Part shown: one piece after another, positions 7,340-34,751 of the stretch
Layout of the letters: every line of letters starts with the position of its first letter
Numbering within the stretch: the stretch's first letter is position 1
Assembly: GCA_016215705.1 (NCBI GenBank)
Contig: JACRIR010000161.1
Location: forward strand, 1-53,138
Length of the DNA: 53,138 nucleotides
Direction: 5' to 3'
From: Candidatus Poribacteria bacterium
Lineage (GTDB): Bacteria > Abyssobacteria > SURF-5
Translations under genes and position numbers: made by a program
The notes under the pieces: model-generated
Seen by the model: the letters and a program-made list of their open reading frames with translations, nothing else
What the model was told of the DNA's origin: nothing
Database searches by the model: none

Positions 7340-7510
7340 CACGGCAGAGCCGCAACCAACCAACATATATCGGGCGCGATGAATCGCGCCCCTACAGCGT
7401 TTCTTGATTCATGCCTGTAGGGGCGCAATTCATTGCGCCCATGTGATTGGCATGCAAGGCGTCACCAGAAATCAAGACACAAACTTAGGAAATTAAATGT
7501 GAGTAGTATA
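7337..7510. repeat. Dispersed repeat A, copy 1
   Basis: This is an element of about 170 bases shared with 11955-12125 and 25575-25812. A left part (GCRNAGCCGCAACCAA) leads to the palindrome GGGCGCGATGAATCGCGCCC, then CCCCTAC, a short spacer TTCTTGATTCATGCCT, GTAGGGG and a second palindrome GGGGCGCAATTCATTGCGCC. A tail with GACAC and a closing GTGAGTAGT word follows. CCCCTAC and GTAGGGG can pair to make a two-armed structure. It fills the gap between the acyl-CoA dehydrogenase pair and the GTPase. Confidence 0.8.
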
Positions 7511-8867: not shown

Positions 8868-8913
8868 TTGACAAAGGCATGGCTTGGTGTTAGAATCATG
8901 ACCAAGTTGGTCA
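8868..8913 (+). promoter_or_regulatory. Promoter and Rrf2-type operator of the sulfur-relay locus
   Basis: TTGACA (8868-8873) and TAGAAT (8891-8896) are spaced by exactly 17 bases. Three bases downstream of the -10 lies a perfect palindrome TGACCAA-G-TTGGTCA (8899-8913) that covers the expected transcription start. Its place 33 bases before the Rrf2-family gene makes it the probable autoregulatory operator. The promoter is visible directly; the binding protein is inferred. Confidence 0.8.
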
Positions 8914-8946
8914 ACATAGTGAACTCAACCGGAGTCCGGTGAATCA

Positions 8947-9387
8947 ATGAAAGTCTCAGCTAAGGGCGATTATGCCTGCCGAGCGCTTCTCGATCTGGCG
9001 CTCAACTATGACAGCCAGACGCCGGTGCACATAACGGAGATCGCGGAACGACAAGGAATCCCCAGAAAATACCTTGTGCAGATTCTCATATTGCTCAAGG
9101 GCGCAGGGTTGGTTAAGAGCAAGCGCGGGGTGGAAGGCGGGTATATGCTGTCGAGGCCGCCTGTTGAGATAACCCTGGGAGAAGTAGTGAGATTGGTTGA
9201 CGGCCCAATCCTCCCCCTCAAGTGTACCATGGATGACGAGTCCGCGACATGTGACCGGAAGCCGATATGCGGCTTTCATCCGATCTGGGAGTCGGTGAGA
9301 GACTCGATCTCCGACATTATCGACAATCTCACGTATGAGGATATATGCAAGAGAACTCGCGAAAAGGAGCAGATGTACTACATATAA
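8947..9387 (+). CDS. Rrf2-family (IscR/CymR-like) transcriptional regulator
   Basis: The protein has 146 residues. An N-terminal winged helix (MKVSAKGDYACRALLDLAL to about residue 75, with ITEIAERQGIPRKYLVQIL and GVEGGYMLSRPP) is followed by a loop with three cysteines in CTMDDESATCDRKPIC and a dimerisation helix. Three clustered Cys in this loop bind an Fe-S cluster in IscR, NsrR and RsrR. CymR, which controls cysteine metabolism, shares the fold. The position at the head of a sulfur-transfer locus, behind a palindromic operator, suggests control by sulfur or Fe-S status. The ATG start leaves a leader of about 43 bases. Family assignment is sure; the signal is inferred. Confidence 0.92.
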   Translation: MKVSAKGDYACRALLDLALNYDSQTPVHITEIAERQGIPRKYLVQILILLKGAGLVKSKRGVEGGYMLSRPPVEITLGEVVRLVDGPILPLKCTMDDESATCDRKPICGFHPIWESVRDSISDIIDNLTYEDICKRTREKEQMYYI

Positions 9388-9456
9388 GGACGGGAGCCGG
9401 TATGGACAGGCTGGAAGATGAAACGCATAATAGTGGTCAGAAGAGGAGGTCAATTT

Positions 9457-9729
9457 ATGACGACGGTTCGCATTCCAACACCACTTCGCAGATTCACGAA
9501 CGGGGCTGAGGATGTGCCCGCGACGGGAGCAACGGTGGCCGAGGTCATCGAGGACCTCGACCGCAACTATGCGGGCATGAAGGCGAGACTCTGTGAGTCC
9601 GACGGCAACGTGCGCCGTTTTGTCAACATCTACATTAATGATGAGGACATCCGCTTTTTGCAGCAGTTGCAGACACCCGTCAGAGACGGCGACGAGCTTT
9701 CGATAATCCCGGCAATCGCTGGCGGATGA
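9457..9729 (+). CDS. ThiS/MoaD/CysO-like ubiquitin-fold sulfur carrier
   Basis: The protein has 90 residues from ATG 9457, which follows a strong AGAGGAGG site at 9442-9449. It has the beta-grasp carrier pattern: VRIPTPLRRFTNG at the start, ATVAEVIEDLDRNYAGM in the helix, RFVNIYINDEDIR, and the closing DGDELSIIPAIAGG. The C-terminal Gly-Gly is the site adenylated by an E1-like enzyme and converted to a thiocarboxylate. The gene overlaps the following E1-like gene by four bases. With CysM and a JAMM peptidase downstream it most resembles CysO of the mycobacterial cysteine pathway. MoaD-like or ThiS-like use cannot be excluded. Confidence 0.9.
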   Translation: MTTVRIPTPLRRFTNGAEDVPATGATVAEVIEDLDRNYAGMKARLCESDGNVRRFVNIYINDEDIRFLQQLQTPVRDGDELSIIPAIAGG

Positions 9730-10565
9730 ACGGAACCACTCAAATGGAATTCACCGAAGAACAGATAAAGAGGTACAGTCGACACATTATCCTCAAGGAC
9801 GTCGGCGGAAAAGGGCAGAAGAAGCTGATGGACGCCAAGGTGTTAGTCATCGGCGCCGGCGGCCTTGGGTCGCCTTCCGCCTTCTATCTTGCTGCGGCGG
9901 GCGTCGGCGTCATCGGCATACTCGATTTTGACACGGTCGACCTCAGCAACCTTCAGCGGCAGATACTGCACGCTACGAAGGATGTGAACCGTCCGAAAGT
10001 GGAATCAGCAAAGGAAACGCTACAGGCGCTCAATCCCGACGTTCGCGTTATCGTGCACAATGAGCGTTTGACAGCAAGCAATGCATTCCGGATTTTCAAG
10101 GACTACGACGTCATTGTCGACGGCTGTGATAATTTCGTGACGCGCTACCTCACGAACGACGCATGTGTCATGCTCGGCAAGCCGAACGTGCACGGAAGCG
10201 TGCTTCTTTTCGAGGGCCACGTCTCCGTCTTTGACGCTAAGAAAGGCCCGTGTTATCGATGCCAGTATCCGCAACCTCCGCCTCCCGGGATGGTACCCAG
10301 TTGTCAGGAGGCCGGAGTCCTCGGAGTTTTGCCCGGTATCATAGGAACTGCTCAAGCCGTTGAAACTCTGAAGCTTATCATAGGGATCGGCAGCCCGCTC
10401 GTTGGTAGACTGCTTCACTTCGACGCTCTCAATATGAGGTTCCGCGAGTTCAAGCTGCGAAAAGACCCGCTCTGCCCCGTCTGCGGCGATGACCCATCAA
10501 TCACGCAGTTGATCGATTACGAGGAGTTTTGCGGGCTCAGACGCGACGGCGAGGGGGAGGAATAG
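9726..10565 (+). CDS. moeZ: E1-like ThiF/MoeB-family carrier-activating enzyme (first copy)
   Basis: The protein has 279 residues and adenylates the C-terminal Gly of a ubiquitin-like sulfur carrier. It shows the nucleotide-binding VLVIGAGGLGSP (39-50), the QRQILH block, two zinc CxxC pairs (Cys176/179 and Cys250/253) and the catalytic-type Cys193 in PSCQEAGVLG. It lacks the C-terminal rhodanese domain of mycobacterial MoeZ, so persulfide sulfur must come from another protein, perhaps TusA or DsrEFH encoded downstream. Its start overlaps the carrier gene by ATGA and its stop is two bases before the cysM-like gene, so the three are tightly coupled. A second start, M7, is possible. The symbol is by analogy only. 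Confidence 0.9.
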   Translation: MNGTTQMEFTEEQIKRYSRHIILKDVGGKGQKKLMDAKVLVIGAGGLGSPSAFYLAAAGVGVIGILDFDTVDLSNLQRQILHATKDVNRPKVESAKETLQALNPDVRVIVHNERLTASNAFRIFKDYDVIVDGCDNFVTRYLTNDACVMLGKPNVHGSVLLFEGHVSVFDAKKGPCYRCQYPQPPPPGMVPSCQEAGVLGVLPGIIGTAQAVETLKLIIGIGSPLVGRLLHFDALNMRFREFKLRKDPLCPVCGDDPSITQLIDYEEFCGLRRDGEGEE

Positions 10566-10567
10566 CG

Positions 10568-11500
10568 ATGGGCAAGCCTGCGCCCGGTCTTGACAATTGC
10601 AGGGCGTGCGAATCCGTGCTCGACTACGTGGGAAATACTCCGCTCATTCGCCTAAAAGGTTTGGAGAGCGAGATCGGCAGGCCGGGTGTCGAGCTATATG
10701 CGAAGGCTGAATGGTTCAACCCGGGTGGTTCAGTCAAGGATCGCGCCGCTCTCCTGATTGTCGAGGACGCCGAGAGGGCCGGCCTGTTAACGCAAGGCAA
10801 GACCATTCTGGAATCCACTTCAGGCAATACGGGCATCGCCCTCGCCATGATCGGCGCGGCCAGGGGATACAAGGTGGATATTGTGATGCCCTCGAATGCG
10901 AGCGAGGAGCGCAAACAAATCATTGAATCGTATGGCGCAAGGATCATCTATTCGAGCCCACTCGAGGGAACAGACGGCGCGCAGAGACTTGCGCACCGCC
11001 TATGCTCTGAGAATCCGAAAAAGTACTTCTATTCGAACCAGTACGGAAACGATTCCAATTGGCGCGCGCACTACGAGGGGACTGGCGTCGAGGTCTATTC
11101 GCAAACTCGCGGACGAATAACGCATTTCGTCGCGGGCGTGGGAACCGGCGGCACGATTATGGGAACGGGTCGCCGGCTCAAAGAATACAACGCGGACATC
11201 AAAGTAATCGCCGTCGGGCCCGCCGAATCGCTCCACGGCATCGAAGGTCTGAAGCACATGGCGACTTCGATAAAGCCGGCAATCTACGATGAAGATTTCC
11301 CCGACGCCAAAGTGAGTGTGCCCACCAACGAGGCCCACAAGTGGGTGCACAGAATGGCCAAAGAGCACGGACTGTTCATCGGGCTTTCGGGTGGGGCAGC
11401 CATTCATGGGGCGTTGAAAGTAGCAAGAAAGCTCTCCTGCGGTGTAGTGGTCACCGTATTGCCCGATACCGGCGCGAGGTACCTGAGCGTTCGGTTCTGA
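10568..11500 (+). CDS. cysM: CysM-like PLP-dependent cysteine synthase
   Basis: The protein has 310 residues from ATG 10568, two bases after the E1-like gene and behind GGGGGAGGAA. It is a beta-family PLP enzyme of the cysteine synthase group: NPGGSVKDRAAL with PLP Lys58, the substrate loop STSGNTGIALAM, and the phosphate-binding GVGTGGTIMGTGR. The usual GLSGGAA segment occurs near the C-terminus. Mycobacterial CysM uses O-phosphoserine and the CysO thiocarboxylate. The gene order here (carrier, E1, synthase, JAMM) repeats that pathway, so a protein-bound sulfur donor is likely. O-acetylserine/sulfide chemistry remains possible. A separate CysK is encoded at 30786. Confidence 0.9.
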   Translation: MGKPAPGLDNCRACESVLDYVGNTPLIRLKGLESEIGRPGVELYAKAEWFNPGGSVKDRAALLIVEDAERAGLLTQGKTILESTSGNTGIALAMIGAARGYKVDIVMPSNASEERKQIIESYGARIIYSSPLEGTDGAQRLAHRLCSENPKKYFYSNQYGNDSNWRAHYEGTGVEVYSQTRGRITHFVAGVGTGGTIMGTGRRLKEYNADIKVIAVGPAESLHGIEGLKHMATSIKPAIYDEDFPDAKVSVPTNEAHKWVHRMAKEHGLFIGLSGGAAIHGALKVARKLSCGVVVTVLPDTGARYLSVRF

Positions 11501-11545
11501 AAAACCGTGCGCCAGAAACGAGGGCCCGGGAGCCAAACCTGATAT

Positions 11546-12034
11546 ATGCTCATTATTTCAAAGAAAATTCTGGATGATATACTTGCCCACTCGAAGGAGA
11601 CGTATCCTGAGGAGTGTTGCGGAATCCTGGTCGGCCGCGACGAGGCCGGCAAACGGGTCGTCACTGAATCTTACCGCGCGAGAAACGTGAGCGAAGGTCG
11701 TAAGCACGACCGGTACCTGATTGACGAGAAGAAGCTGATCGAAGTGATGAAGGCGACACGTGGGCTCTCGGTGGACGTGGTTGGATTCTACCATTCGCAT
11801 CCCGACTACCCGAGCCGCCCGTCCGGGTATGATACCGAGACCGCCGCCTGGCCCGGATACTCATATATGATAGTGTCGGTAGCGAAGGAAAAGGTTGTTT
11901 CCTTCCAGTCGTGGGTCATGCCCGACGGAGCGAATGCTTTTGAGGAAGAACCCATAGATGCCGCAGCGCAGCATGACCGCAACCAAGAAATAAACATCGG
12001 GCGCGATGAATCGCGCCCCTACGGAAATTCTTGA
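11546..12034 (+). CDS. mec: JAMM (Mec+-like) metallopeptidase
   Basis: The protein has 162 residues. The JAMM zinc site is complete: Glu in EECCG (22-23), HSHP with His83 and His85, and Asp96 in the spaced HxHx10D signature. Mec+ in mycobacteria hydrolyses the CysO-cysteine adduct made by CysM to release cysteine and regenerate the carrier; the adjacent carrier, E1 and CysM-like genes fit that role. The last ~25 residues (from about 138) are the translation of repeat A copy 2, whose TGA serves as stop. The natural C-terminus was therefore probably shorter and has been replaced. The catalytic domain itself is untouched. Confidence 0.88.
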   Translation: MLIISKKILDDILAHSKETYPEECCGILVGRDEAGKRVVTESYRARNVSEGRKHDRYLIDEKKLIEVMKATRGLSVDVVGFYHSHPDYPSRPSGYDTETAAWPGYSYMIVSVAKEKVVSFQSWVMPDGANAFEEEPIDAAAQHDRNQEINIGRDESRPYGNS

Positions 12035-12125
12035 TTCATGCCTGTAGGGGCGCAATTCATTGCGCCCATGCGGGTTTCGGGCAAGGTGTCGTAAGAAACC
12101 ACGACACGAATTCAAAAGACTAACA
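11955..12125. repeat. Dispersed repeat A, copy 2
   Basis: This is an element of the same layout as 7337-7510, with the two GGGCGCGATGAATCGCGCCC and GGGGCGCAATTCATTGCGCC type palindromes, the TTCTTGATTCATGCCT spacer and a CACGACACGAATTC tail. It overlaps the 3' end of the JAMM gene and occupies the joint before dsrE, so it may separate two transcripts. Confidence 0.8.
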
Positions 12126-12145
12126 GTAAGCAACACAGAGGTGGA

Positions 12146-12466
12146 ATGAGCATGAGCGAAAAGAAGAAATTGGGTATTCTTCTCACAACCAGCCCGGAGC
12201 ATGCGAACACTCAGAGTGTCATAAGAATCGCCGAGGCAGCCCTCAAGAAAGACGTAGAGGTTCGCATCTTCTTGATGTGCGACGGAGTGTTCAACTGCAA
12301 CCAGGTTCCACTCTTGAACCTGCTCGACAAAGGCGCCAAGATTTGTTTGTGCCAGCAGAATCTGAATGAGAGATTTCAGGACGAGGCAAACGGGATCACG
12401 CTGGGAAGTCAGTATGACTTCGCGAGCAACGTCCGGGATATGGACAGGATACTTGCTTTCTGCTGA
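12146..12466 (+). CDS. dsrE: DsrE/TusD-like sulfur-relay protein
   Basis: The protein has 106 residues with the DsrE fold: LGILLTTSPEHANTQSVIRI, then DVEVRIFLMCDGVFNC and NLLDKGAKICLCQQNLNERF. In DsrE and TusD a conserved Cys in the helix after the fourth strand carries the persulfide; Cys67 or Cys69 in KICLC occupies that place. DsrE-F-H hetero-hexamers accept sulfur from TusA and pass it on, in sulfur oxidation or in tRNA thiolation. DsrF and DsrH homologs follow after 3 and 14 bases. Starts at 12146 or 12152 are both possible. No dsrAB or dsrC is in the window, so direction of flow is open. Confidence 0.85.
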   Translation: MSMSEKKKLGILLTTSPEHANTQSVIRIAEAALKKDVEVRIFLMCDGVFNCNQVPLLNLLDKGAKICLCQQNLNERFQDEANGITLGSQYDFASNVRDMDRILAFC

Positions 12467-12469
12467 ATC

Positions 12470-12814
12470 ATGAAGACCACAGCCGTAATCATATCGCAAT
12501 CGCCATTGAAGACTCTGCGCGTCGCTGAAGCGCTCAGGATGAGCGTCGGACTCACGCTCTGTGATGACGCTGTTCGCATAGTTTTTGTGGACGACGGGGT
12601 ATATACTTTGCTCCATACGGAGCCTGCGCGGGTCGGAATGCCCGAGTATTCGCGCCACGTGAGAACGCTCAAGGACCTCGGCCACGCCATTTATGCGGAA
12701 CGGGAATCATTGGAGGAACGCGGCCTCGAAAGGATTTCTTTCAAGCCGGAGATTGTGTCCCGTGCGGAAGTCATCCGGCTCTTGCTGGATAGCGACGCCG
12801 TGATTAGATACTGA
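12470..12814 (+). CDS. dsrF: DsrF/TusC-like sulfur-relay protein
   Basis: The protein has 114 residues of the DsrE/F family, with ALRMSVGLTLCDDAVRIVFV and VDDGVYTLLH near the middle and a C-terminal helix-strand AEVIRLLLDSDAVIRY. It occupies the middle place of the DsrE-F-H trio, three bases after dsrE and 14 before dsrH. TusC/DsrF is normally a structural partner whose own Cys is not essential, so its role is assembly of the heteromeric sulfur carrier. The call relies on order plus fold-type pattern. Alternative: a second DsrE-like protein. Confidence 0.78.
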   Translation: MKTTAVIISQSPLKTLRVAEALRMSVGLTLCDDAVRIVFVDDGVYTLLHTEPARVGMPEYSRHVRTLKDLGHAIYAERESLEERGLERISFKPEIVSRAEVIRLLLDSDAVIRY

Positions 12815-12828
12815 ATCGGAGAAGAGAA

Positions 12829-13086
12829 GTGAAGGTACTGCATATCATCCGGTCCAACGACGACAGGCTGGCGCATCGGTTCATCGACCAGATCGGCCGG
12901 TTGGACACCTCGGAACAGACAATCTTGATGATCCAGGACGGCGTATACGTCAGGCCCAAAGGCCCGAAAGTCTTTGCATGCGCCGAGGACGTATTGGCCC
13001 GTGGAATCGAGACTGACGTCGCGCTCGTGGACTACGACCGGATCGTAGAGATGGTTTTCGAGGCCGATAAAGTCATAACGTGGTAG
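12829..13086 (+). CDS. dsrH: DsrH/TusB-like sulfur-relay protein
   Basis: The protein has 85 residues from GTG 12829, preceded by a GAAGAG site. The pattern MKVLHIIRSND, QTILMIQDGVYV, then TDVALVDYDRIVEMVFEADK and VITW is that of TusB/DsrH, the smallest subunit of the trio. It completes a DsrE-DsrF-DsrH set in canonical order with short spacings. It is expected to form the 2:2:2 complex in the cytoplasm. No other function is suggested by context. Confidence 0.82.
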   Translation: MKVLHIIRSNDDRLAHRFIDQIGRLDTSEQTILMIQDGVYVRPKGPKVFACAEDVLARGIETDVALVDYDRIVEMVFEADKVITW

Positions 13087-13109
13087 AATCGAGACGAAAG
13101 AAGAAAGGA

Positions 13110-13156
13110 AAATCCCCCTCTTTCCCCCTTTTCCAAAGGGGGAGGAAGGGGGATTT
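13110..13156. repeat. Repeat F hairpin, copy 1
   Basis: AAATCCCCCTCTTTCCCCC and its near complement (AAAGGGGGAGGAAGGGGGATTT type) form a long GC-rich stem with a 3-base loop about 25 bases after dsrH. A related AAATCCCCCC...TTCCCTCTTTGCGAAAGAGGGAA unit lies inside the glycosyltransferase at 32318-32352. It could attenuate transcription in either direction, but it has no long T-run. Confidence 0.6.
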
Positions 13157-13269
13157 GGAATTTAGGGTCCGGGACCTGCAATGTACGACCCGCGCCTAGC
13201 CGGTTGTGTTGTGAAATGATTGCCAAGACCCGCGTTCCAGTTGTATTTGGCAGCCTGTCATGCTACTAT

Positions 13270-13385
13270 ACAACGAGATGCACGAACCTGTCCTCCAACT
13301 CTGTGGGTGCGCATTCATTTGCACGCTGAGCGCAGAAAAAGGCGGGAACTATTGTGCGAATGGATTCTAACCCGCACAGGTTTTC
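13270..13385 (-). repeat. Dispersed repeat C, reversed copy
   Basis: Read on the minus strand this contains GTGCAAATGAATGCGCACCC, ACAGAGTTGGAGGACAGG and an upstream CATTCGCACAATAGTTCC word. These resemble the C copies at 8768 and 32395. It fills most of the 364-base gap between dsrH and tusA. I see no gene there. Confidence 0.45.
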
Positions 13386-13450
13386 CTCGAGGCGCCGATT
13401 GCGGGATAATCTTAAGATGGCAGCTTAAATTGGGAGTTGAAAGAAGATAG

Positions 13451-13702
13451 ATGGAACAGCCGAAACCACAAGTCAAAGCGGACAAGGAAATCAACCTAAA
13501 GGGAGAGGTTTGTCCGTACACGTTCGTCAAATCGAAACTTGCGATCGAGGAAATGCTTCCCGGTCAGGTGCTCCGCGTGATTGTTGATTATGTGCCCGCG
13601 ACCAAGAATGTGCCGAGGAGCATGCAGAACGAAGGCAACAGCGTTCTCGACGTGAGCAAGCTCAACGACAACGATTGGCAGATTGTCGTCCGCAAGGGCT
13701 GA
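13451..13702 (+). CDS. tusA: TusA-family sulfurtransferase/persulfide carrier
   Basis: The protein has 83 residues. It has the two-layer TusA fold: INLKGEVCPYTFVKSKLAIE with the active Cys21, LPGQVLRVIVDYVPATKNVP, and the closing DNDWQIVVRKG. TusA receives a persulfide from cysteine desulfurase and donates it to DsrE/TusD or other acceptors. The motif is CPYTF rather than the CPxP of E. coli TusA; the CPYTF form is common in anaerobes. It ends two bases before the second E1-like gene, which suggests direct sulfur delivery between them. The start is ATG 13451 after a weak AAGAAG site. Confidence 0.9.
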   Translation: MEQPKPQVKADKEINLKGEVCPYTFVKSKLAIEEMLPGQVLRVIVDYVPATKNVPRSMQNEGNSVLDVSKLNDNDWQIVVRKG

Positions 13703-13704
13703 CC

Positions 13705-14526
13705 ATGCTCGATTTCACCGAAGAAGAAATCAAACGATACAGCCGCCACATAATCCTGAAAGAAGTCGGCGGCAGAGGCCAGAAGAAGCTTCGTGAATCA
13801 AGCGCACTGGTTGTAGGTCTCGGCGGACTAGGCTCGCCGGTCGCCCTGTATCTGGCAGCGGCCGGAATCGGCACACTCGGCGTTCTGGATAACGACGTCG
13901 TCGAGTTGAGCAATCTTCAGAGACAGATACTTCACGGCACAAGCGATATCGGCAGGCAAAAGACGGATTCGGCCGAAAATCGCATCCGAGCCCTGAACCC
14001 CGGCGTCAAGGTTACAAAACACTGTGCCAGGCTTGACAAGAATAACGTCGAGCGGACGATTCGTGACTATGACGTCATAATTGACGGCGTCGATAACTTC
14101 GCGGCGCGATATTTGCTCAACGACGCCTGTTTTTTCGGGAATAAGCCGCTTGTTGAAGCGGGAGTGCTTCAGTTTCTTGGCCAGATCATGACGATTGTGC
14201 CGGGGAAGGGTCCGTGTTATCGCTGTGTTTTTCCCGAGCCGCCCCCGCCGGGGAGCGTACCGAGTTGTCAGGAAGCCGGCATACTGGGGGCAGTCGCCGG
14301 AGTGTTGGGCGTGCTGCAAGCGACCGAGGCGATAAAATTGATCCTGGGCATTGGCAAACCGCTCGTGGGTCGCATGATTATCTATGAGGCGCTCAGCGGC
14401 TCGTTCAGGGAAGTCGGCTTCAGACCAAACCCGAAATGCCCGTTGTGCGGAGAGAAACCGTCGATAACAGAACTTGTTGAATATCCTGTCGCATGTGAAG
14501 AGCAACGCCAGGATGCAGTCACATAA
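13705..14526 (+). CDS. E1-like ThiF/MoeB-family enzyme (second copy)
   Basis: The protein has 273 residues from ATG 13705, two bases after tusA; an in-frame ATG at 13675 lies inside tusA. It keeps LVVGLGGLGSP (35-45), QRQILHGTSDIG, two zinc CxxC pairs (Cys171/174 and Cys245/248) and Cys188 in PSCQEAGILG, so all catalytic features are intact. It is clearly a paralog of the E1-like gene at 9726; the two align end to end with many identical blocks. Only one beta-grasp carrier is visible in the locus, so this copy either shares it or serves a carrier elsewhere. Coupling to tusA suggests it takes sulfur from TusA. Confidence 0.9.
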   Translation: MLDFTEEEIKRYSRHIILKEVGGRGQKKLRESSALVVGLGGLGSPVALYLAAAGIGTLGVLDNDVVELSNLQRQILHGTSDIGRQKTDSAENRIRALNPGVKVTKHCARLDKNNVERTIRDYDVIIDGVDNFAARYLLNDACFFGNKPLVEAGVLQFLGQIMTIVPGKGPCYRCVFPEPPPPGSVPSCQEAGILGAVAGVLGVLQATEAIKLILGIGKPLVGRMIIYEALSGSFREVGFRPNPKCPLCGEKPSITELVEYPVACEEQRQDAVT

Positions 14527-14547
14527 TAGGCAAATAGGACAATCTCG

Positions 14548-14588
14548 CTTATTGGGGGGGCCATGCGGCATGGTGTTCGCCAATAGGC
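14548..14588. repeat. Dispersed repeat B, copy 2 (degenerate)
   Basis: TTATTGGGG, CCATGCGGCATGG and TTCGCCAATAG keep the centre and outer pairing of family B, with several mismatches in the GGGGACAC arm. It lies in the 96-base joint between the second E1-like gene and the PP-loop gene. Confidence 0.65.
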
Positions 14589-14622
14589 GGCTGTCTGCGA
14601 TGGCAAACGGAATGCAAAGCAC

Positions 14623-15642
14623 ATGAATGAGAAAGCGAAGCCAAAGGCGATAGCGCTGCTTTCAGGCGGCCTGGACAGCGCGCTCGCAATCAGCATAATG
14701 CTTGATATGGGCGTCGACGTCGAAGCGCTCAATTTCACGACCATTTTCTGCAACTGCGCCAGTTCAAAGAAAGGCGAAGGCTGTGGAAGCGAGGCCCGCC
14801 GTTTAAGCGGACTCTTTGGAATAAAACTGACCGTCATCAATGTCACGGCGGAATACATCGCCGTGATCAAGCATCCGAAACATGGCCGGGGCTCGAGCAT
14901 GAATCCGTGCATCGACTGTCGAATCTTCATGTTCCGCAAGGCGAAGGAATATATGCTTAAGACGGGGGCCGACTTCATCGTGACGGGTGAGGTGCTTGGG
15001 CAAAGGCCGATGTCCCAGCATATGCGCGCCATGATGCTCATAGAGCGCGAAAGCGGTCTCGAAGGCCTGGTTTTGAGACCGTTGAGCGCCAGGCTTCTAT
15101 CACCCACGTTGGCAGAGAAGGAAGGGCTCGTCGACCGCGAAAAACTGCTCGACATCAAAGGGCGGAGCCGGAAACCCCAGATACTGCTTGCCAGTGAGAA
15201 GGGAATCACCGACTACGCATGTCCCGCCGGCGGATGTTTGCTGACTGACAAATCCTTCGGGAGACGGCTGAAGGACCTCCTCGCGCATATCCCCGACGCC
15301 GGCGTTGCCGAGATGCGTCTGTTGAAGTACGGCCGCCATTTCCGGCTTCCCGACGGCTCGAAAATAATCATCGGGCGCGACAAAGAGGAAAACGACAGGC
15401 TGGAACAATTCGGCAAGGGTTACGACAGGTTTCAGGTGGCCGACTCTCTTGGGCCCGTTACATTGGCGCCGAGACGATTATCCGAAGAAACAAAGAGGAT
15501 CGTCGCTTCGCTTACAGCCCGTTACAGTCAGGGCAGGGAAATGCCCACTTTGCGTATTCGGCACTGCGAGGACGGCACTGAAAGCTTTATTGAAATTGCG
15601 CCTGCGAGCGATGAAGATCTGGCGCGCTGGCGCATCGACTAG
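14623..15642 (+). CDS. PP-loop ATPase of the ThiI/MnmA-like tRNA thiolation type
   Basis: The protein has 339 residues. The PP-loop SGGLDS (14-19) binds ATP for adenylation of a nucleobase or carrier. Cysteine clusters follow: Cys43, Cys45 and Cys54; Cys96 and Cys99 in NPCIDC; and Cys200 and Cys205 in ACPAGGC. The last resemble the metal- or Fe-S-binding sets of thiolases of the TtuA/ThiI/MnmA superfamily. The C-terminal ~110 residues (from about FGRRLKDLL) look like the NFACT-R-like domain found in this group. With carriers and activases upstream, sulfur insertion into tRNA or a small molecule is likely; the product is unknown. It closes the sulfur locus. Confidence 0.82.
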   Translation: MNEKAKPKAIALLSGGLDSALAISIMLDMGVDVEALNFTTIFCNCASSKKGEGCGSEARRLSGLFGIKLTVINVTAEYIAVIKHPKHGRGSSMNPCIDCRIFMFRKAKEYMLKTGADFIVTGEVLGQRPMSQHMRAMMLIERESGLEGLVLRPLSARLLSPTLAEKEGLVDREKLLDIKGRSRKPQILLASEKGITDYACPAGGCLLTDKSFGRRLKDLLAHIPDAGVAEMRLLKYGRHFRLPDGSKIIIGRDKEENDRLEQFGKGYDRFQVADSLGPVTLAPRRLSEETKRIVASLTARYSQGREMPTLRIRHCEDGTESFIEIAPASDEDLARWRID

Positions 15643-15887: not shown

Positions 15888-16430
15888 TCATATTTGTGGA
15901 GGCGTAACGACGGTTATCACCTCTGCGCTCTCCTTCGAGGTGTTTTGCCATTGATAGGGCGTGCCGGCCGCCAGATACATGCTGTCTCCGGAGCCTAATT
16001 TATAGGTTTGGTCGCCCGAGGTTACCTCTATTTTTCCGCTCAGCACGAAGAAGAACTCCTCGCTGTAATTCACGATCGGTTCTTTTCCCGACGAATATCC
16101 GGACGGCGCCGTGATCTTGATCGGCTCCATCTTTTTGGTTGCTATGTTCATTGCCAGGAACTCGGTCGTGGAGTCACCGTCGGTAAAGAATCTGCGTGCT
16201 TCACCCTTGCGAACCACTGAGGCCTGCCCTCTCTCGATCGAAGTGAAGAGGTCGTGCAATTTCAATCCAAGCGAGGAGACCATTTTCATTAAGGACGTCA
16301 ACGACGGCGAAACCGACCCCGTTTCGACACGCGAGATGAGGGCTTTGGAATAGCCGCACTTATTCGACAATTCCTCGAGCGTCATCCCCTGCGACACCCT
16401 GATTCGTTTCAGTTCTTTTCCGATGTCCAT
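15888..16430 (-). CDS. XRE-family HTH regulator with cupin domain (first of three)
   Basis: The protein has 180 residues. Residues about 6-60 are a Cro/CI-type HTH (ELKRIRVSQGMTLEELSNKC, GYSKALISRVETGSVSPSL); residues about 105-175 are a cupin barrel (VNYSEEFFFVLSGKIEVTSG, GDSMYLAAGTPYQWQNTS). This architecture, as in PuuR and MppR relatives, uses the cupin to sense a small ligand. The gene is the last of three paralogs, all on the minus strand and separated by 240-290 bases, so they are probably separate transcripts. A terminator-like hairpin follows. The ligand is unknown. The neighbouring sulfur locus is a possible but unproved target. Confidence 0.9.
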   Translation of the reverse strand: MDIGKELKRIRVSQGMTLEELSNKCGYSKALISRVETGSVSPSLTSLMKMVSSLGLKLHDLFTSIERGQASVVRKGEARRFFTDGDSTTEFLAMNIATKKMEPIKITAPSGYSSGKEPIVNYSEEFFFVLSGKIEVTSGDQTYKLGSGDSMYLAAGTPYQWQNTSKESAEVITVVTPPQI

Positions 16431-16723
16431 TCTTTTTCATCTCCCTTTTCCGGCCGAGGTCCCTTGTCGAATGAACCATTTCAATAGATATCGGGACTTT
16501 CGGCCCACCTTGCCTTCCGCTCAGCGTATTGCGAAACCTTTAAATCATTTACTTCCCCCGGCTTCTCATGCCCCGAGCGGCACATACTCCTAAAGTAATC
16601 TGTTCCCCGTTTCTGCCCCAGAGTGCAAACAACAACCGCTATTCCTCCCCCTCTTTCACCCTTTTTGCAGTCCCTCCTTTTTCCGGATATTTTCCTTGAT
16701 CATTTGCTTTGTGAGTTCGCTGT

Positions 16724-17269
16724 TCAAGAAGAAGGCGGCGTCGATACAACCAGTGTGGTAGTTCGACCCTTCGCAGCGTTCCGCCACTTGTGAGGGGTCG
16801 CCATCTTCACGTACATGCAATCGCCTTCGTTCAGATCGTATGCTTCTTCCTCGACCAAAGCCTCCAGTTTCCCTTTGAGAACGTACAACCATTCTTCACC
16901 GATGTGCGCGGCTCTCTTGTCCTCGCTGGCCGCCCCGGCCTCAAACGTCTTGATGACGGATTCCATTTTGCTCCCGGGAGGACCTTGGGACAGGTACTCT
17001 ACCTTTATCTTCCCGCCCGAAAGAGTCGAGGACTTCCGACCACTCTTTTTGATCACAGACACATGCCCGCCTTCTACTGCCGTAAAAAGCTGGTGGAGAC
17101 TGATTGCCACCGCTCCCGCTATCTTGATCAGAGAGCTTATGGACGGAGAAACTGAATCGTTCTCAATTCGAGAAATAAGCGCCTTTGAGTAACCCGTCTT
17201 TTCCGCCACGTTCTGGAGTGTCATCCCTTTTTCCAGACGCATTTTCCTGAGTTTTTCACCAAGGGTCAT
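16724..17269 (-). CDS. XRE-family HTH regulator with cupin domain (second of three)
   Basis: The protein has 181 residues with the same two-domain plan: HTH at about 6-60 (KLRKMRLEKGMTLQNVAEKT, GYSKALISRIENDSVSPSI) and a cupin at about 105-178 (IGEEWLYVLKGKLEALVEE, GDCMYVKMATPHKWRNAAKG). The recognition-helix region GYSKALISRIE is almost the same as in the two neighbours while the middle linker (about 62-100) has diverged. The three may therefore see related DNA sites but different signals. Its start is ATG 17269, with a GAGGAGG-like site upstream on the minus strand. The function is otherwise unknown. Confidence 0.9.
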   Translation of the reverse strand: MTLGEKLRKMRLEKGMTLQNVAEKTGYSKALISRIENDSVSPSISSLIKIAGAVAISLHQLFTAVEGGHVSVIKKSGRKSSTLSGGKIKVEYLSQGPPGSKMESVIKTFEAGAASEDKRAAHIGEEWLYVLKGKLEALVEEEAYDLNEGDCMYVKMATPHKWRNAAKGRTTTLVVSTPPSS

Positions 17270-17511
17270 CGTTTTCTGCCTCCTCTTTGACTCCCACGCA
17301 TGCGTCCACTTCCTATTCGCGCTTCTGAAATCCTATTGAACTCCGCTTTTCTGACCCGCATGAAACAAGAATCCGGGATGCTCCTACTTATCTGGCGCGT
17401 TTCACCCCCTTACCTAAGCGCTACACGTCCTCGCAGCCATTCACATTTCCAACGTCCTGAAGGCTGGTCGAGCTTCGCTTATTCTCAACCGCTCCCCGAT
17501 GTCGAGGTTAT

Positions 17512-18063
17512 TCAAACGCGCACCGGAGTAATGACGCAAAAGGCGGTAGCATTTCCCTTGCCAACGTTCCGGAAACCATGCGGGACAGCCGCGTTGAAAT
17601 ATGCGCAATCCCCTTCCTCGAGGACGTGCTTTTTCTCCGCGAGTGTAAGCTCCATGCGACCCTTCAACTGCATCGCCCATATCTCGCCGCGATCCCCGCC
17701 GAGCTCGCTGCCCGTCGATGCTCCCTTTTCGACCGTGATCAGCAGCGGCTCTATCTTCTTTTCGTCGGTCTGTTCAGTGAGGAACTCGACCTCGACCTTC
17801 CCGCCGCCTATCTTGGCCTTCTTGCGTTCGGCCCTGCGGACCACGGTCGGCTCCGCATCCCTGGCGGGAAGAAACAGGTCATGGGGTTTAACCTCCAGAG
17901 CCGAAGCAATCTTCAACAGCGAATTTATCGACGGCGACACATTCCCGTTCTCTATACGGGAAATCAGCGCCTTCGAATAGCCCGATTTCGCCGACACGTC
18001 CTTTAGCGTATAACCTTTTTCGAGCCGCACCTTCTTCAAACGTTCACCAATATTTACGTCCAT
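17512..18063 (-). CDS. XRE-family HTH regulator with cupin domain (third of three)
   Basis: The protein has 183 residues with an HTH at about 6-60 (RLKKVRLEKGYTLKDVSAKS, GYSKALISRIENGNVSPSI) and a cupin at about 110-180 (DRGEIWAMQLKGRMELTLAE, GDCAYFNAAVPHGFRNVGKG). The linker KKAKIGGGKVEVEFLTEQTD resembles that of the second paralog (GGKIKVEYLS), so these two are probably closest. It is first in the transcription direction, and 734 bases of gene-free DNA lie upstream. The ligand and targets are unknown. Confidence 0.9.
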   Translation of the reverse strand: MDVNIGERLKKVRLEKGYTLKDVSAKSGYSKALISRIENGNVSPSINSLLKIASALEVKPHDLFLPARDAEPTVVRRAERKKAKIGGGKVEVEFLTEQTDEKKIEPLLITVEKGASTGSELGGDRGEIWAMQLKGRMELTLAEKKHVLEEGDCAYFNAAVPHGFRNVGKGNATAFCVITPVRV

Positions 18064-24172: not shown

Positions 24173-24204
24173 GCGCGGAACTCTTATAGGAGAGTCGGGA
24201 AAAA

Positions 24205-25542
24205 GTGCCTTTTAAAGCTTGGTTTCAATGTATAGGCGAATGCGAAGACAGATATCCGCTCAATGAGGTAATCTACAACTGTCCCAAATGCGGAAACCTT
24301 CTCGAGGTGCGTCATGACATGGAGGTGCTGAAGACGCGCAGCGCGTACGCCTGGATGAAACTCTTTGATGAGCGCTTCATGCGAACCGAGTGGCCGTACG
24401 GCAGTTCGGTTTGGGGAAAGAAAGAGGTCGTTTGTCCCCATGTGGCCAACGAAAACATTGTGTCGATGTACGAGGGCGGGAGCAATCTGTTCCTTGCCGA
24501 GCGGCTCGGCAAACAGATCGGCGTCGAAGACCTGTGGGTGAAACAGTGCGGCAACAGCCACACCGGTTCCTTTAAAGACCTGGGCATGACGGTTCTGGTT
24601 TCGATGGTCAATCAGATGCGCGCCGAGGGGAAACAGATCACGGCTGTCGCGTGCGCGTCGACCGGCGATACCTCCGCCGCTCTCGCAGCCTATTGCGCCG
24701 CCGCCGGCATACAGGCCGTCGTATTCCTCCCGAAGAATAAGGTGTCAATCCCGCAGCTTATCCAGCCGCTCTCGAACAACGCCATCACGCTTTCCATCGA
24801 CACCGACTTCGACGGCTGCATGAAACTGGTCAAGGAGGTCTGTGCAAAGAACAACATCTATCTTGCCAACTCGATGAATTCGTTGCGCATCGAAGGTCAG
24901 AAGACGGTAAGCATCGAGATCGTGCAGCAGTTTGATTGGGAGGCGCCCGACTGGGTGATAATCCCGGGAGGCAACCTCGGCAATCTGTCGGCGCTTGGCA
25001 AAGGACTTCTTCTCATGGAGGAACTGGGAATAATCCGGCGCAGACCCCGCATCGCGTGCGCCCAGGCCGCAAACGCGAATCCGCTTTTCCTCAGTTTCAT
25101 GAAGGGATTCAAGGAGTTCACCCCGAAGAAAGCGAAGAAAACGCTCGCAAGCGCCATCCAGATAGGAAATCCGGTAAGTTATCAGAAAGCGATCAATGCC
25201 CTCAAGGAATTCGACGGCGTCGTCGAGCAGGCGACCGAAGAAGAACTCTCAAATGCCGCTGCTTTGGCTGACACAACCGGCCTGTTCTGTTGCCCGCATA
25301 CCGGAGTCGCTCTCTCCGCTCTCTCTAAACTTGTCGGCAAAGGCATCATTAAGTCTCACGAGAAAGTCGTAGTGATCTCGACCGCTCATGGGTTGAAGTT
25401 TACCGACTTCAAGCTCAAGTATCACACCGGCAAGCTCCATGGTGTCAAGCCGCGCCACGCAAACATACCGGTTGAAGTGACCGCCAACTACGGAAGAGTC
25501 CGCGACGCAATTTACAGGGAGCTTGATCGCCGCGCGAAGTAG
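24205..25542 (+). CDS. thrC: Threonine synthase
   Basis: The protein has 445 residues from GTG 24205 behind a GGAGAG site at 24189. An N-terminal zinc-ribbon-like part ([12 protein letters not shown] and NCPKCG, residues about 9-33) precedes the fold-type II PLP core: [18 protein letters not shown] holds the PLP lysine, [19 protein letters not shown] is the substrate loop, and [19 protein letters not shown] binds the phosphate. It converts O-phosphohomoserine to threonine. The length and the N-terminal ribbon match the ThrC type common in archaea and many deep-branching bacteria. Repeat A copy 3 starts about 30 bases after the stop. Confidence 0.92.
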
Positions 25543-30785: not shown

Positions 30786-31718
30786 ATGCGCGTTTATCAG
30801 AGTGTTCTGGAGACTATCGGAAGGACTCCACTGGTTAGAATCAATAAAGTGGTGAAGAACAAGAACGCCGTCCTCTACGTCAAACTGGAGGGCCAGAACC
30901 CGGGCGGCTCGGTCAAAGACCGCATAGCGCTCAGCATGGTCGAGTCCGCCGAGCGTGACGGCAGGCTCACCAAAGATAGAATTATTCTGGAGCCCACGAG
31001 CGGCAACACCGGCATCGGCCTCGCCATTGTCGCCCTGGTGAAGGGATACCAGTTGCACGTTACCATGTCGGCTGGAATGAGCGACGAGCGTAAGAACATG
31101 CTCCTGGCGCTCGGGGCAACCCTTATTCTGACCGATCCCTCAAAAGGGACTGACGGCGCAATCCTGAAGGCCCGTGAGCTTATCAAAGAGAACCCGGAGA
31201 AATACTGGGAGCCCGACCAATTCAATAATTCTGCAAATCCGGAGATTCATTACCGCACAACCGCCGAGGAAGTATGGCAGGACCTTGATGGGAACATCGA
31301 TGTTTTTGTGGCGGCCCTTGGGACATCCGGCACCATTATGGGAGCGGGCAAGCGGCTGCGCGAGCTGAACCCGAAAACAAGGATAGTCGCGGTTGAACCC
31401 GTGCTCGGCCACAAGATTCAAGGTCTCAAGAATATGAAAGAGGCGATCGTCCCCGGCATATATAGCGAGGCCGGCTGGGATGAAAAAGTTACCGTGGACG
31501 ACCGACTGTGCGACGAATACAGCCGGAAACTTTCCCGCGAAGAGGGCATCTTTGCAGGAATGAGCGCAGGCGCAGCCTTCTATGCGGCGGTTCAGGCAAC
31601 CGAAAAGCTTCCGCGCGGCAACGTCGTCTGCATAATACCCGACCGGGGCGAGAAATACTTGAGCACGCGCCTATTCGAGTTGGAGAATAAAGCCGGGCGG
31701 ATAATCAAGGCGTACTGA
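30786..31718 (+). CDS. cysK: Cysteine synthase A (O-acetylserine sulfhydrylase)
   Basis: The protein has 310 residues, the normal length of CysK, which makes cysteine from O-acetylserine and sulfide. PLP Lys lies in NPGGSVKDRIALSMV, the substrate loop is PTSGNTGIGLAIVAL, and the phosphate-binding GTSGTIMGAGKRL and the C-terminal GMSAGAAFYAAVQ are intact. It is separate from the CysM-like gene at 10568, and its own promoter suggests independent control. The two synthases give the cell a sulfide route here and a carrier-bound route there. An AGAGG site precedes the ATG. A long hairpin follows the stop. Confidence 0.94.
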   Translation: MRVYQSVLETIGRTPLVRINKVVKNKNAVLYVKLEGQNPGGSVKDRIALSMVESAERDGRLTKDRIILEPTSGNTGIGLAIVALVKGYQLHVTMSAGMSDERKNMLLALGATLILTDPSKGTDGAILKARELIKENPEKYWEPDQFNNSANPEIHYRTTAEEVWQDLDGNIDVFVAALGTSGTIMGAGKRLRELNPKTRIVAVEPVLGHKIQGLKNMKEAIVPGIYSEAGWDEKVTVDDRLCDEYSRKLSREEGIFAGMSAGAAFYAAVQATEKLPRGNVVCIIPDRGEKYLSTRLFELENKAGRIIKAY

Positions 31719-33596: not shown

Positions 33597-34751
33597 TTAC
33601 GTGAGCGCTGACATTTTCCGGAGCCGCTGGACAATTTCCGGGAGAACTTCGGCGACGTAGAGGATATCCTCTCTGGAGTTGTCTATGCCGAGCGAGAACC
33701 TCAGTGAACCATGCGCTATCTCATGAGGCAGGCCGATTGCCAGCAGGACGTGCGACGGGTCGAGCGAGCCGGAAGTACACGCCGAGCCGCTCGAGACAGC
33801 GATCCCTTTCATGTCGAGCATCATTATCATGGATTCGCCCTCGACGTAGCGGAAGCAGATGTTGAGTGTATTCGGAAGCCTGTCGGTCGGGTGTCCGTTG
33901 ACGAGGGTATCGTCGATGCGCTCGACGAGTTCATTTTGGAGGCGATCGCGAAGCTCCACAAGTTTCCGATAATTGCTTTCCATCGATTTCTGCGAGAGCT
34001 CGCAAGCCTTTCCCATCCCCACTATGCCCGGAGTATTCTCGGTGCCCGCGCGCCGGTTGGTCTCATGATGTCCGCCATGCTGAAGAGGGAAGATGCGTGT
34101 GCCCTTCTTTATGAAAAGGGCTCCAACGCCTTTCGGGCCGTAAATCTTGTGGGCGGACATTGACATGAGCGTAGCATTCGATCTCACGACGTCGACAGGT
34201 ATCTTTCCGCACGTCTGAACGGCATCGGTATGGAAATAGACGCCTTTTTCGGCTCCAATTTTGCCAATCTCGTCAATATCCTGAATTGTGCCTATCTCGT
34301 TGTTGCCATGTATGATCGAGATCAGGATCGTGTCTTTGCGAATGGAGTCGCGCAATTGATCGAGGTCGACCTTTCCATACTTATCGACTTTGAGATATGT
34401 GACCTCGAAGCCCTGTTTTTCCAGGAATTTGCAGGTGTTAAGAACGGCGTGATGTTCGACCTGGGACGTGATGATATGCTTGCCTTTTTTCTCGTTCGCA
34501 TGCGCTATGCCCTTGATGGCGAGATTGTCCGACTCGGTGCCGCCACTTGTGAAGACGATGTTTGCGGACTCGGCGCCGATGAGGCCGGCGACCTGGTCGC
34601 GAGCCTTGGCCATCGCCTCTCGAGCCTCACGCCCGAAACTGTGAACGCTCGAAGCGTTCCCGTATTTCTGCTCGAAGTACGGAAGCATCGCCTTGAGGAC
34701 GTCCGGGCTCACCGCAGTGGTGGCATTGTGGTCAAGATAAACGCGTTTCAT
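33597..34751 (-). CDS. nifS: Cysteine desulfurase, NifS/IscS type
   Basis: The protein has 384 residues, typical of class I desulfurases. PLP Lys202 lies in SMSAHKIYGPKGVGAL, His100/101 in SQVEHHAVLNTC, and the mobile persulfide loop SSGSACTSGSLDPSH holds active Cys325. It removes sulfur from cysteine as an enzyme persulfide for Fe-S clusters, TusA or other carriers. It lies 13 bases after the second desulfurase gene, with the Se/S carrier gene downstream, so the three form an operon. No iscU or iscA is adjacent. It may feed the sulfur-relay locus at 9-15.6 kb. Confidence 0.92.
   Translation of the reverse strand: MKRVYLDHNATTAVSPDVLKAMLPYFEQKYGNASSVHSFGREAREAMAKARDQVAGLIGAESANIVFTSGGTESDNLAIKGIAHANEKKGKHIITSQVEHHAVLNTCKFLEKQGFEVTYLKVDKYGKVDLDQLRDSIRKDTILISIIHGNNEIGTIQDIDEIGKIGAEKGVYFHTDAVQTCGKIPVDVVRSNATLMSMSAHKIYGPKGVGALFIKKGTRIFPLQHGGHHETNRRAGTENTPGIVGMGKACELSQKSMESNYRKLVELRDRLQNELVERIDDTLVNGHPTDRLPNTLNICFRYVEGESMIMMLDMKGIAVSSGSACTSGSLDPSHVLLAIGLPHEIAHGSLRFSLGIDNSREDILYVAEVLPEIVQRLRKMSALT

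Follow-up and report, generated by a model that had tools for sequence, protein, structure and literature searches.

The locus at positions 8947-15642 of the window (the entire 53,138-nucleotide stretch of contig JACRIR010000161.1 from a Candidatus Poribacteria bacterium) carries eleven genes on the + strand, which encode an Rrf2 regulator, a GG-ended carrier, a first E1 (E1a), CysM, a JAMM peptidase, DsrE, DsrF, DsrH, TusA, a second E1 (E1b), and a PP-loop enzyme. Together, their products probably synthesize cysteine, with small proteins passing the sulfur from one to the next. With moderate confidence, we interpret the locus as a protein-thiocarboxylate route to cysteine in which a persulfide relay serves as the sulfur donor, and our best reading of the relay is that DsrE and a TusA of the CPYT type would stand in for the rhodanese domain that MoeZ carries. 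The gene content comes from the sequence and from comparative genomics, and the mechanistic steps beyond it are what we infer from that content. The genes are as follows.

8947-9387, + strand: Rrf2-family regulator (CymR/IscR-like), C-x8-C-x5-C-x2-H
9457-9729, + strand: ubiquitin-like sulfur carrier (ThiS/MoaD/SAMP1-like), C terminus IIPAIAGG, 67 bits for ThiS
9726-10565, + strand: E1a, MoeB/ThiF-type adenylyltransferase without a rhodanese domain
10568-11500, + strand: CysM-like cysteine synthase dependent on pyridoxal phosphate (PLP), HGIEGLKHM signature
11546-12034, + strand: JAMM/Prok-JAB metallopeptidase, motif HSHPDYPSRPSGYD
12146-12466, + strand: DsrE-like sulfurtransferase subunit, invariant Cys, which is Cys67 when counted from a start at 12152
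12470-12814, + strand: DsrF/TusC-like subunit, no conserved Cys
12829-13086, + strand: DsrH/TusB-like subunit, no conserved Cys
13451-13702, + strand: TusA-like carrier with a CPYT motif (GEVCPYTFVKSKL)
13705-14526, + strand: E1b, second MoeB/ThiF-type E1
14623-15642, + strand: PP-loop ThiI/MnmA-like enzyme with a C-terminal NFACT-R_2 domain, a lineage-specific neighbor

All eleven open reading frames exceeded the Pfam gathering scores, and NCBIfam cut-offs were checked in addition. The Pfam scores were 131.8 bits for Rrf2, 67 for the ThiS-family carrier, 283 and 287 for ThiF, 247 for PALP/CysM, 80 for Prok-JAB, 35 and 47 for the DsrE family, 35 for DsrH, 75 for TusA, and 57 for the ThiI-like PP-loop domain together with 77 for NFACT-R_2. 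The eleven co-directional genes described in an initial annotation of this DNA were thus confirmed, all of them on the + strand at the place given for them.

The carrier/E1/CysM half of the locus and its DsrEFH/TusA half very likely work as one pathway, because gene content remains constant while gene order is permuted over many families, a pattern that usually indicates functional coupling. Genomes, loci, and contigs are given below by our own handles (G, L, and C numbers, respectively; G000 is the genome containing the window). Within the family, the eleven-gene order is identical in G002, and in G001, where the locus lies at a contig end, only CysM is missing from the set. When 386 diverse genomes were searched with a DsrE alignment, 15 proved to have E1-linked DsrE. 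In the phylum of G064, which appears to be Nitrospinota (loci L126, L118, and L137 included), 21 of 24 genomes possess the cluster; E1 lies directly upstream of DsrE wherever the contig reaches, and in every contig that extends over the region, DsrE-DsrF separates E1 from CysM. Outside the family of G000, the two halves are interleaved. The order is ThrC-carrier-E1-DsrE-DsrF-CysM-DsrH-TusA-NIL-Rrf2 in G064, G335, G205, and others; G093 and G360 have one run of Rrf2-ThrC-carrier-NIL-NIL-E1-JAMM-DsrE-DsrF-DsrH-TusA-CysM, and G022, G307, and G169 have ThrC-CysM-JAMM-carrier~NIL-E1-DsrE-DsrF. The cluster of G185, carrier-E1-DsrE-DsrF-DsrH-CysM-JAMM, is placed directly downstream of CysC and CysH, which points to assimilation. 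At the level of predicted genes, the comparison demonstrates a recurrent unit of permuted order. Its members are the carrier, an E1 without a rhodanese domain, DsrE/F, and a CysM that belongs to a distinct subfamily, usually joined by DsrH and a CPYT-type TusA. The joining of both halves, as proposed in the initial annotation, is therefore not peculiar to this genome, and relatives do not keep the halves apart.

The structure of the E1s is consistent with a donor other than a fused rhodanese. Both E1s retain the cysteine of the SCQEAG motif and the Zn cysteines (E1a, in which the nucleotide site is present as well, was aligned to MoeB 1jw9 and ThiF 1zfn) and stop about 25 residues past the Zn motif, which leaves no rhodanese domain. 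On the E1 tree, E1b does not derive from a recent duplication of E1a. A C-terminal domain of ~130 residues exists in 34 of the 48 scorable E1s from carrier/CysM/JAMM loci without relay genes, and the tails inspected looked like rhodanese, whereas the domain occurs in none of the 23 E1s accompanied by DsrEF and none of the 14 accompanied by TusA alone (0/37 together); the pairing of a rhodanese-less E1 with DsrEF/TusA, also pointed out initially, holds well beyond this locus. The 14 short E1s without nearby relay genes are from 13 loci of Nitrospinota metagenome-assembled genomes and from G007. A single origin of the DsrEF linkage was rejected: at least three changes are forced, and eight are needed on the E1 tree. 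In Poribacteria-type loci (L065, L068, L072, L074, L119, L133, and L135), a rhodanese-less E1 is located within about 6 kb of a TusA-domain protein of ~820 residues.

The E1s of the locus probably have additional clients. G000, whose assembly completeness is 92%, has two full-length E1s, both at the locus, against five carriers. These are the locus carrier, three MoaD-like proteins whose genes adjoin AOR genes, and a ThiS encoded ahead of ThiG and ThiE; the ThiS-ThiG-ThiE set and the three MoaD-AOR pairs sit elsewhere, without an E1. As the search of the genome turned up no further full-length E1, E1a and E1b probably also serve ThiS and the AOR-linked MoaDs. The loss of another E1 from the assembly is unlikely because a third E1 is absent from three genomes, with two matches each in G001 and G002. 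Sharing of one E1 by several ubiquitin-like carriers has precedents in TtuC of Thermus (PMC3980101) and in MoeZR (PMC3227635). The same distribution of E1s would also fit an alternative in which the relay and both E1s chiefly load ThiS and the AOR-linked MoaDs, for thiazole and tungsten cofactor synthesis, and CysM is merely co-regulated. That alternative seems unlikely to us, given that 30 of 35 related clusters contain CysM and 26 a threonine-synthase-like gene, that one cluster directly follows CysC/CysH, and that the cluster has its own dedicated carrier.

The arrangement of the locus makes joint expression of the relay and the cysteine genes plausible. The carrier and E1a genes overlap by 4 bp, and the spacing is 3 bp between DsrE and DsrF, 14 bp between DsrF and DsrH, and 2 bp between TusA and E1b; wider gaps precede DsrE (111 bp, 12035-12145), TusA (364 bp, 13087-13450), and the PP-loop gene (96 bp). 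The following elements lie in and around the run.

8868-8896, + strand: sigma-70-like promoter, TTGACA-17-TAGAAT, 11/12 consensus matches
8898-8914, no strand: near-perfect palindrome ATGACCAAGTTGGTCAA directly after the -10 box, candidate Rrf2 operator
11999-12067, no strand: dispersed palindromic repeat whose first arm encodes the C-terminal tail of the JAMM reading frame
13110-13156, no strand: palindromic element inside the 364-bp gap

Position 8868, at which the initial annotation had the locus start, coincides with the -35 box of this promoter, and a TTGACA promoter-like site exists also upstream of many related clusters. The palindrome ATGACCAAGTTGGTCAA is the sole site with one mismatch to TTGACCAANTTGGTCAA in a pattern search of this genome and is partially conserved in G002, where AAGTTGGTCAA is kept at the same position. 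A genome-wide Rrf2 regulon based on the palindrome was rejected: one further site, with two mismatches, was found in this genome and none in G001 or G002, and a control pattern matched as often in G001/G002 as the palindrome pattern did. The upstream regions of the clusters L260, L262, L264, L267, L126, and L268 have in common an ACTAGGG/CTAAGG-like motif between the -35 and -10 boxes, possibly an Rrf2 operator. The regulator itself resembles CymR and IscR with scores below both family cut-offs, and the three Cys residues are kept in 13 of 14 cluster Rrf2 proteins. Transcription of all eleven genes as one unit is plausible because no promoter-like or terminator-like site was found on the + strand in the 111-bp or the 364-bp gap. 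The repeat GGGCGCGATGAATCGCGCCCCTAC is dispersed at window positions 7372, 11999, and 25615 (partner arms at 7417 and 12044), and one copy lengthens the JAMM reading frame.

The downstream end of the locus allows a second alternative, in which the 364-bp gap separates an Rrf2-carrier-E1a-CysM-JAMM(-DsrEFH) unit for cysteine from a TusA-E1b-PP-loop unit for tRNA thiolation. The palindrome in the gap and the fact that TusA, E1b, and the PP-loop gene remain neighbors in each of the family's three genomes (G000, G001, and G002) agree with this division. We regard it as improbable, because a CPYT-type TusA adjoins DsrH/CysM in other families without an E1b or PP-loop gene, because the 364-bp gap is free of the signals looked for above, and because G001 has no more than about 100 bp at the corresponding place. 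The PP-loop enzyme matches the Pfam families ThiI, tRNA_Me_trans, and NFACT-R_2 but not the TtuA type, so that the initial label of PP-loop thiolase was correct as to the PP-loop and is better replaced by a ThiI/MnmA-like, thiouridylase-type enzyme. Its candidacy as a core member was rejected, and PP-loop thiolation as a general output of the system was not borne out, as the gene is widespread (162/386 genomes) and its best-scoring copies outside the family have no adjacent E1. In this family, the enzyme may possibly act in tRNA thiolation supplied by the same carriers.

The relay proteins have diverged from their canonical relatives. Cys67 of DsrE is invariant in 14 of 14 relatives and aligns near the YchN cysteines. 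The active-site Cys of DsrH known from sulfur oxidizers has no counterpart, with no conserved Cys among nine DsrH sequences. The motif of TusA is CPYT rather than CPxP, and CP(Y/F)T is found in 24 of the 26 TusA proteins of related clusters with a readable motif. DsrE, DsrF, DsrH, and TusA all scored below their NCBIfam cut-offs (22.5 bits against 89.25 for DsrE, and 46.1 against 94.15 and 46.5 against 49.2 among the others). Their initial naming as DsrE, DsrF, DsrH, and TusA is hence adequate at the level of Pfam superfamilies and does not extend to canonical membership. The system shares with the TusA-TusBCD-TusE and DsrEFH-DsrC relays a DsrE with one conserved Cys and DsrF, DsrH, and TusA partners, and differs from them in the scores below family cut-offs, the DsrH without Cys, the CPYT motif, and the apparent dispensability of DsrC/TusE. 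The acceptor of the locus relay is probably the E1/carrier pair. That DsrEFH-TusA is instead a dissimilatory sulfur-trafficking module, for oxidation or for reduction with DsrC, which landed beside cysteine genes is highly improbable: DsrC/TusE and neighboring dsr-type genes are present in this genome, and dsrEFH/tusA of Nitrospinota have been discussed as sulfur-oxidation markers (PMC10839748), but DsrC/TusE was not found in four cluster-bearing genomes of at least 90% completeness that keep DsrEF beside E1 (G185, G307, G169, and G016), a second, canonical DsrEFH adjoins dsrC in G093/G360 (28-40 bits, where the cluster copies reach 42-126 bits), and the interleaving with E1 and CysM is conserved.

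The carrier, CysM, and JAMM proteins complete the proposed cysteine route. Most related carriers have 1-11 residues beyond GG (e.g., L126, L121, L118, L137, and L260-L269), and four loci encode a carrier whose AIAGG continues into a fused NIL domain (L182:9358-9906, L174:7495-8037, L054:8724-9272, and L056:10561-11088). In these four loci, JAMM is encoded in the same cluster as the fusion, which looks like a precursor needing cleavage to free GG. Tailed-carrier clusters such as L126, L121, L118, L137, and L260-L269 are without JAMM, though their carriers would need trimming before the E1 reaction. The carrier of G002 (L039) has a 24-residue tail that is itself GG-ended. A double role of JAMM, in carrier maturation and in cysteine release, fits these observations because tailed and NIL-fused carriers would need a peptidase before the E1 and because all 13 genomes of at least 90% completeness encode a Prok-JAB protein. 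CysM is 43% identical to Mycobacterium tuberculosis CysM, and the HG(I/L)EGLKH motif is common to it and most cluster CysMs. The Lys of this motif is aligned with an Arg of the mycobacterial enzyme, which we take to be Arg220.

The pathway we favor, the relay-fed thiocarboxylate route to cysteine, would proceed as follows. Inorganic sulfane sulfur, such as polysulfide, thiosulfate, or a sulfite-reductase product, would first be converted into persulfides on the cysteines of DsrE and TusA. E1a would then adenylate the C-terminal Gly of the carrier, and the relay, in the role of the MoeZ rhodanese domain, would turn it into the carrier thiocarboxylate. CysM would transfer the carrier sulfur to an activated serine to form a carrier-cysteine adduct, from which JAMM would free cysteine, after having trimmed the carrier where residues follow GG. 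Finally, with sufficient cysteine or an adequate Fe-S status, Rrf2 would act as repressor of the operon. Three related genes lie elsewhere in the window.

24190-25539, + strand: threonine-synthase-like PLP enzyme, of the family heading many related clusters, unlinked here
30786-31718, + strand: second cysteine synthase
33597-34751, - strand: NifS-type cysteine desulfurase

Inorganic sulfane sulfur is the expected input because a cysteine desulfurase alone gives no net cysteine. A separate sulfur-assimilation cluster on contig C33 of this genome (L006, L271, and L273) encodes CysH, a second TusA (CPINF), an NIR_SIR sulfite-reductase-like protein, Rrf2, and a MoaD-AOR pair. As for the acceptor, of 13 well-assembled cluster genomes, 6, among them G000, have a CysE scoring above the cut-off, and the other seven do not; O-acetylserine is therefore possible as the acceptor here, and O-phosphoserine is likely in the seven genomes lacking CysE. 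Downstream of the locus, on the - strand at window positions 15888-18063, three adjacent XRE-cupin regulators are encoded, and copies adjoin the locus also in G001 (L040; two seen) and G002 (L039; three seen).

Several observations weigh against this interpretation. The run is interrupted by the two large gaps, which carry palindromic elements. Despite strong raw counts, the exclusion of rhodanese by relay genes was rejected as an independent evolutionary proof: a tree-based test had only three independent pairs, without significance, and since roughly two changes on the E1 tree account for the rhodanese fusion, the pattern is phylogenetically confounded. DsrEF-linked E1s do not form one clade. 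The Lys at the position equivalent to M. tuberculosis Arg220, both here and in most clusters, makes a preference for O-phosphoserine less certain, and most of the clusters without JAMM would need one encoded elsewhere in the genome. In addition, the locus need not be the main cysteine route, since CysE and another cysteine synthase are encoded in this genome too.

The locus shares features with several known systems. Wolinella HcyS/HcyF/HcyD, of a thiocarboxylate methionine route, and Pseudomonas QbsE/QbsD use JAMM to trim post-GG carrier residues before E1. Similar trimming is suggested by the carriers with tails or NIL fusions in related clusters, while the Hcy and Qbs systems differ in their output, which is homocysteine or a thioacid rather than cysteine, and in having no DsrEFH. 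The locus resembles the CysO-CysM-Mec+/MoeZR system (PMC3227635) in the GG-ended carrier, the MoeB-type E1, the CysM-like PLP synthase, the JAMM protein, and the probable sharing of E1 with MoaD; it is distinguished by its rhodanese-less E1, DsrE/F/H and TusA in the operon, Lys at the place of Arg220, and Rrf2. Like Thermus TtuA/TtuB/TtuC (PMC3980101), this family would use one E1 for several carriers and has a PP-loop enzyme nearby, but the PP-loop protein here is ThiI/MnmA-like with NFACT-R_2 rather than TtuA, and is unlinked to the module elsewhere. Iyer et al. (2006) described operons of class 4e, composed of a carrier, JAB, a rhodanese-less E1, and SirA/TusA, and of class 4c, composed of a carrier, E1, JAB, and cysteine synthase, and made the same observation of a rhodanese-less E1 for the SirA/TusA operons (PMC1779556). 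The locus merges features of both classes, and DsrE/F/H is unmentioned in the main text of that paper. The sulfate/sulfite genes of class 4e are absent from this locus; CysC/CysH lies beside the G185 cluster, and CysH and a sulfite-reductase-like gene are on C33. The initial statement that no known pathway joins both halves must accordingly be narrowed, as the union of carrier, JAMM, E1, and TusA was described in 2006 (PMC1779556), and it stands for DsrEFH as far as that main text goes. Full-text literature searches found no published description of the full union among the papers covered, and the DsrEFH/CPYT-TusA relay within a cysteine module over several lineages appears to be the new part.

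In mycobacteria, sulfur was proposed to reach CysO via the rhodanese domain of MoeZR, and the sulfur source of the CysO pathway was stated to be unknown (PMC3227635); a persulfide relay beside the E1 and the carrier is a concrete candidate donor for a CysO-type pathway. We more tentatively suggest a widespread route in which sulfane sulfur passes through a dedicated DsrEFH/CPYT-TusA relay to the carrier on a rhodanese-less E1 and then to cysteine, with JAMM maturing tailed or NIL-fused carriers and adjacent ThrC-like and NIL genes extending the route to homocysteine or methionine. If this is true, some of the dsrEFH-tusA genes now taken as markers of sulfur oxidation would belong to cysteine synthesis. 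Caution seems reasonable in any case where dsrEFH and tusA serve as such a marker, as in Nitrospinota (PMC10839748), because in 21 of 24 genomes of this apparent phylum a DsrE of the locus type lies within an E1-CysM cluster, and sulfur oxidation is probably not the function of some dsrEFH-tusA genes.

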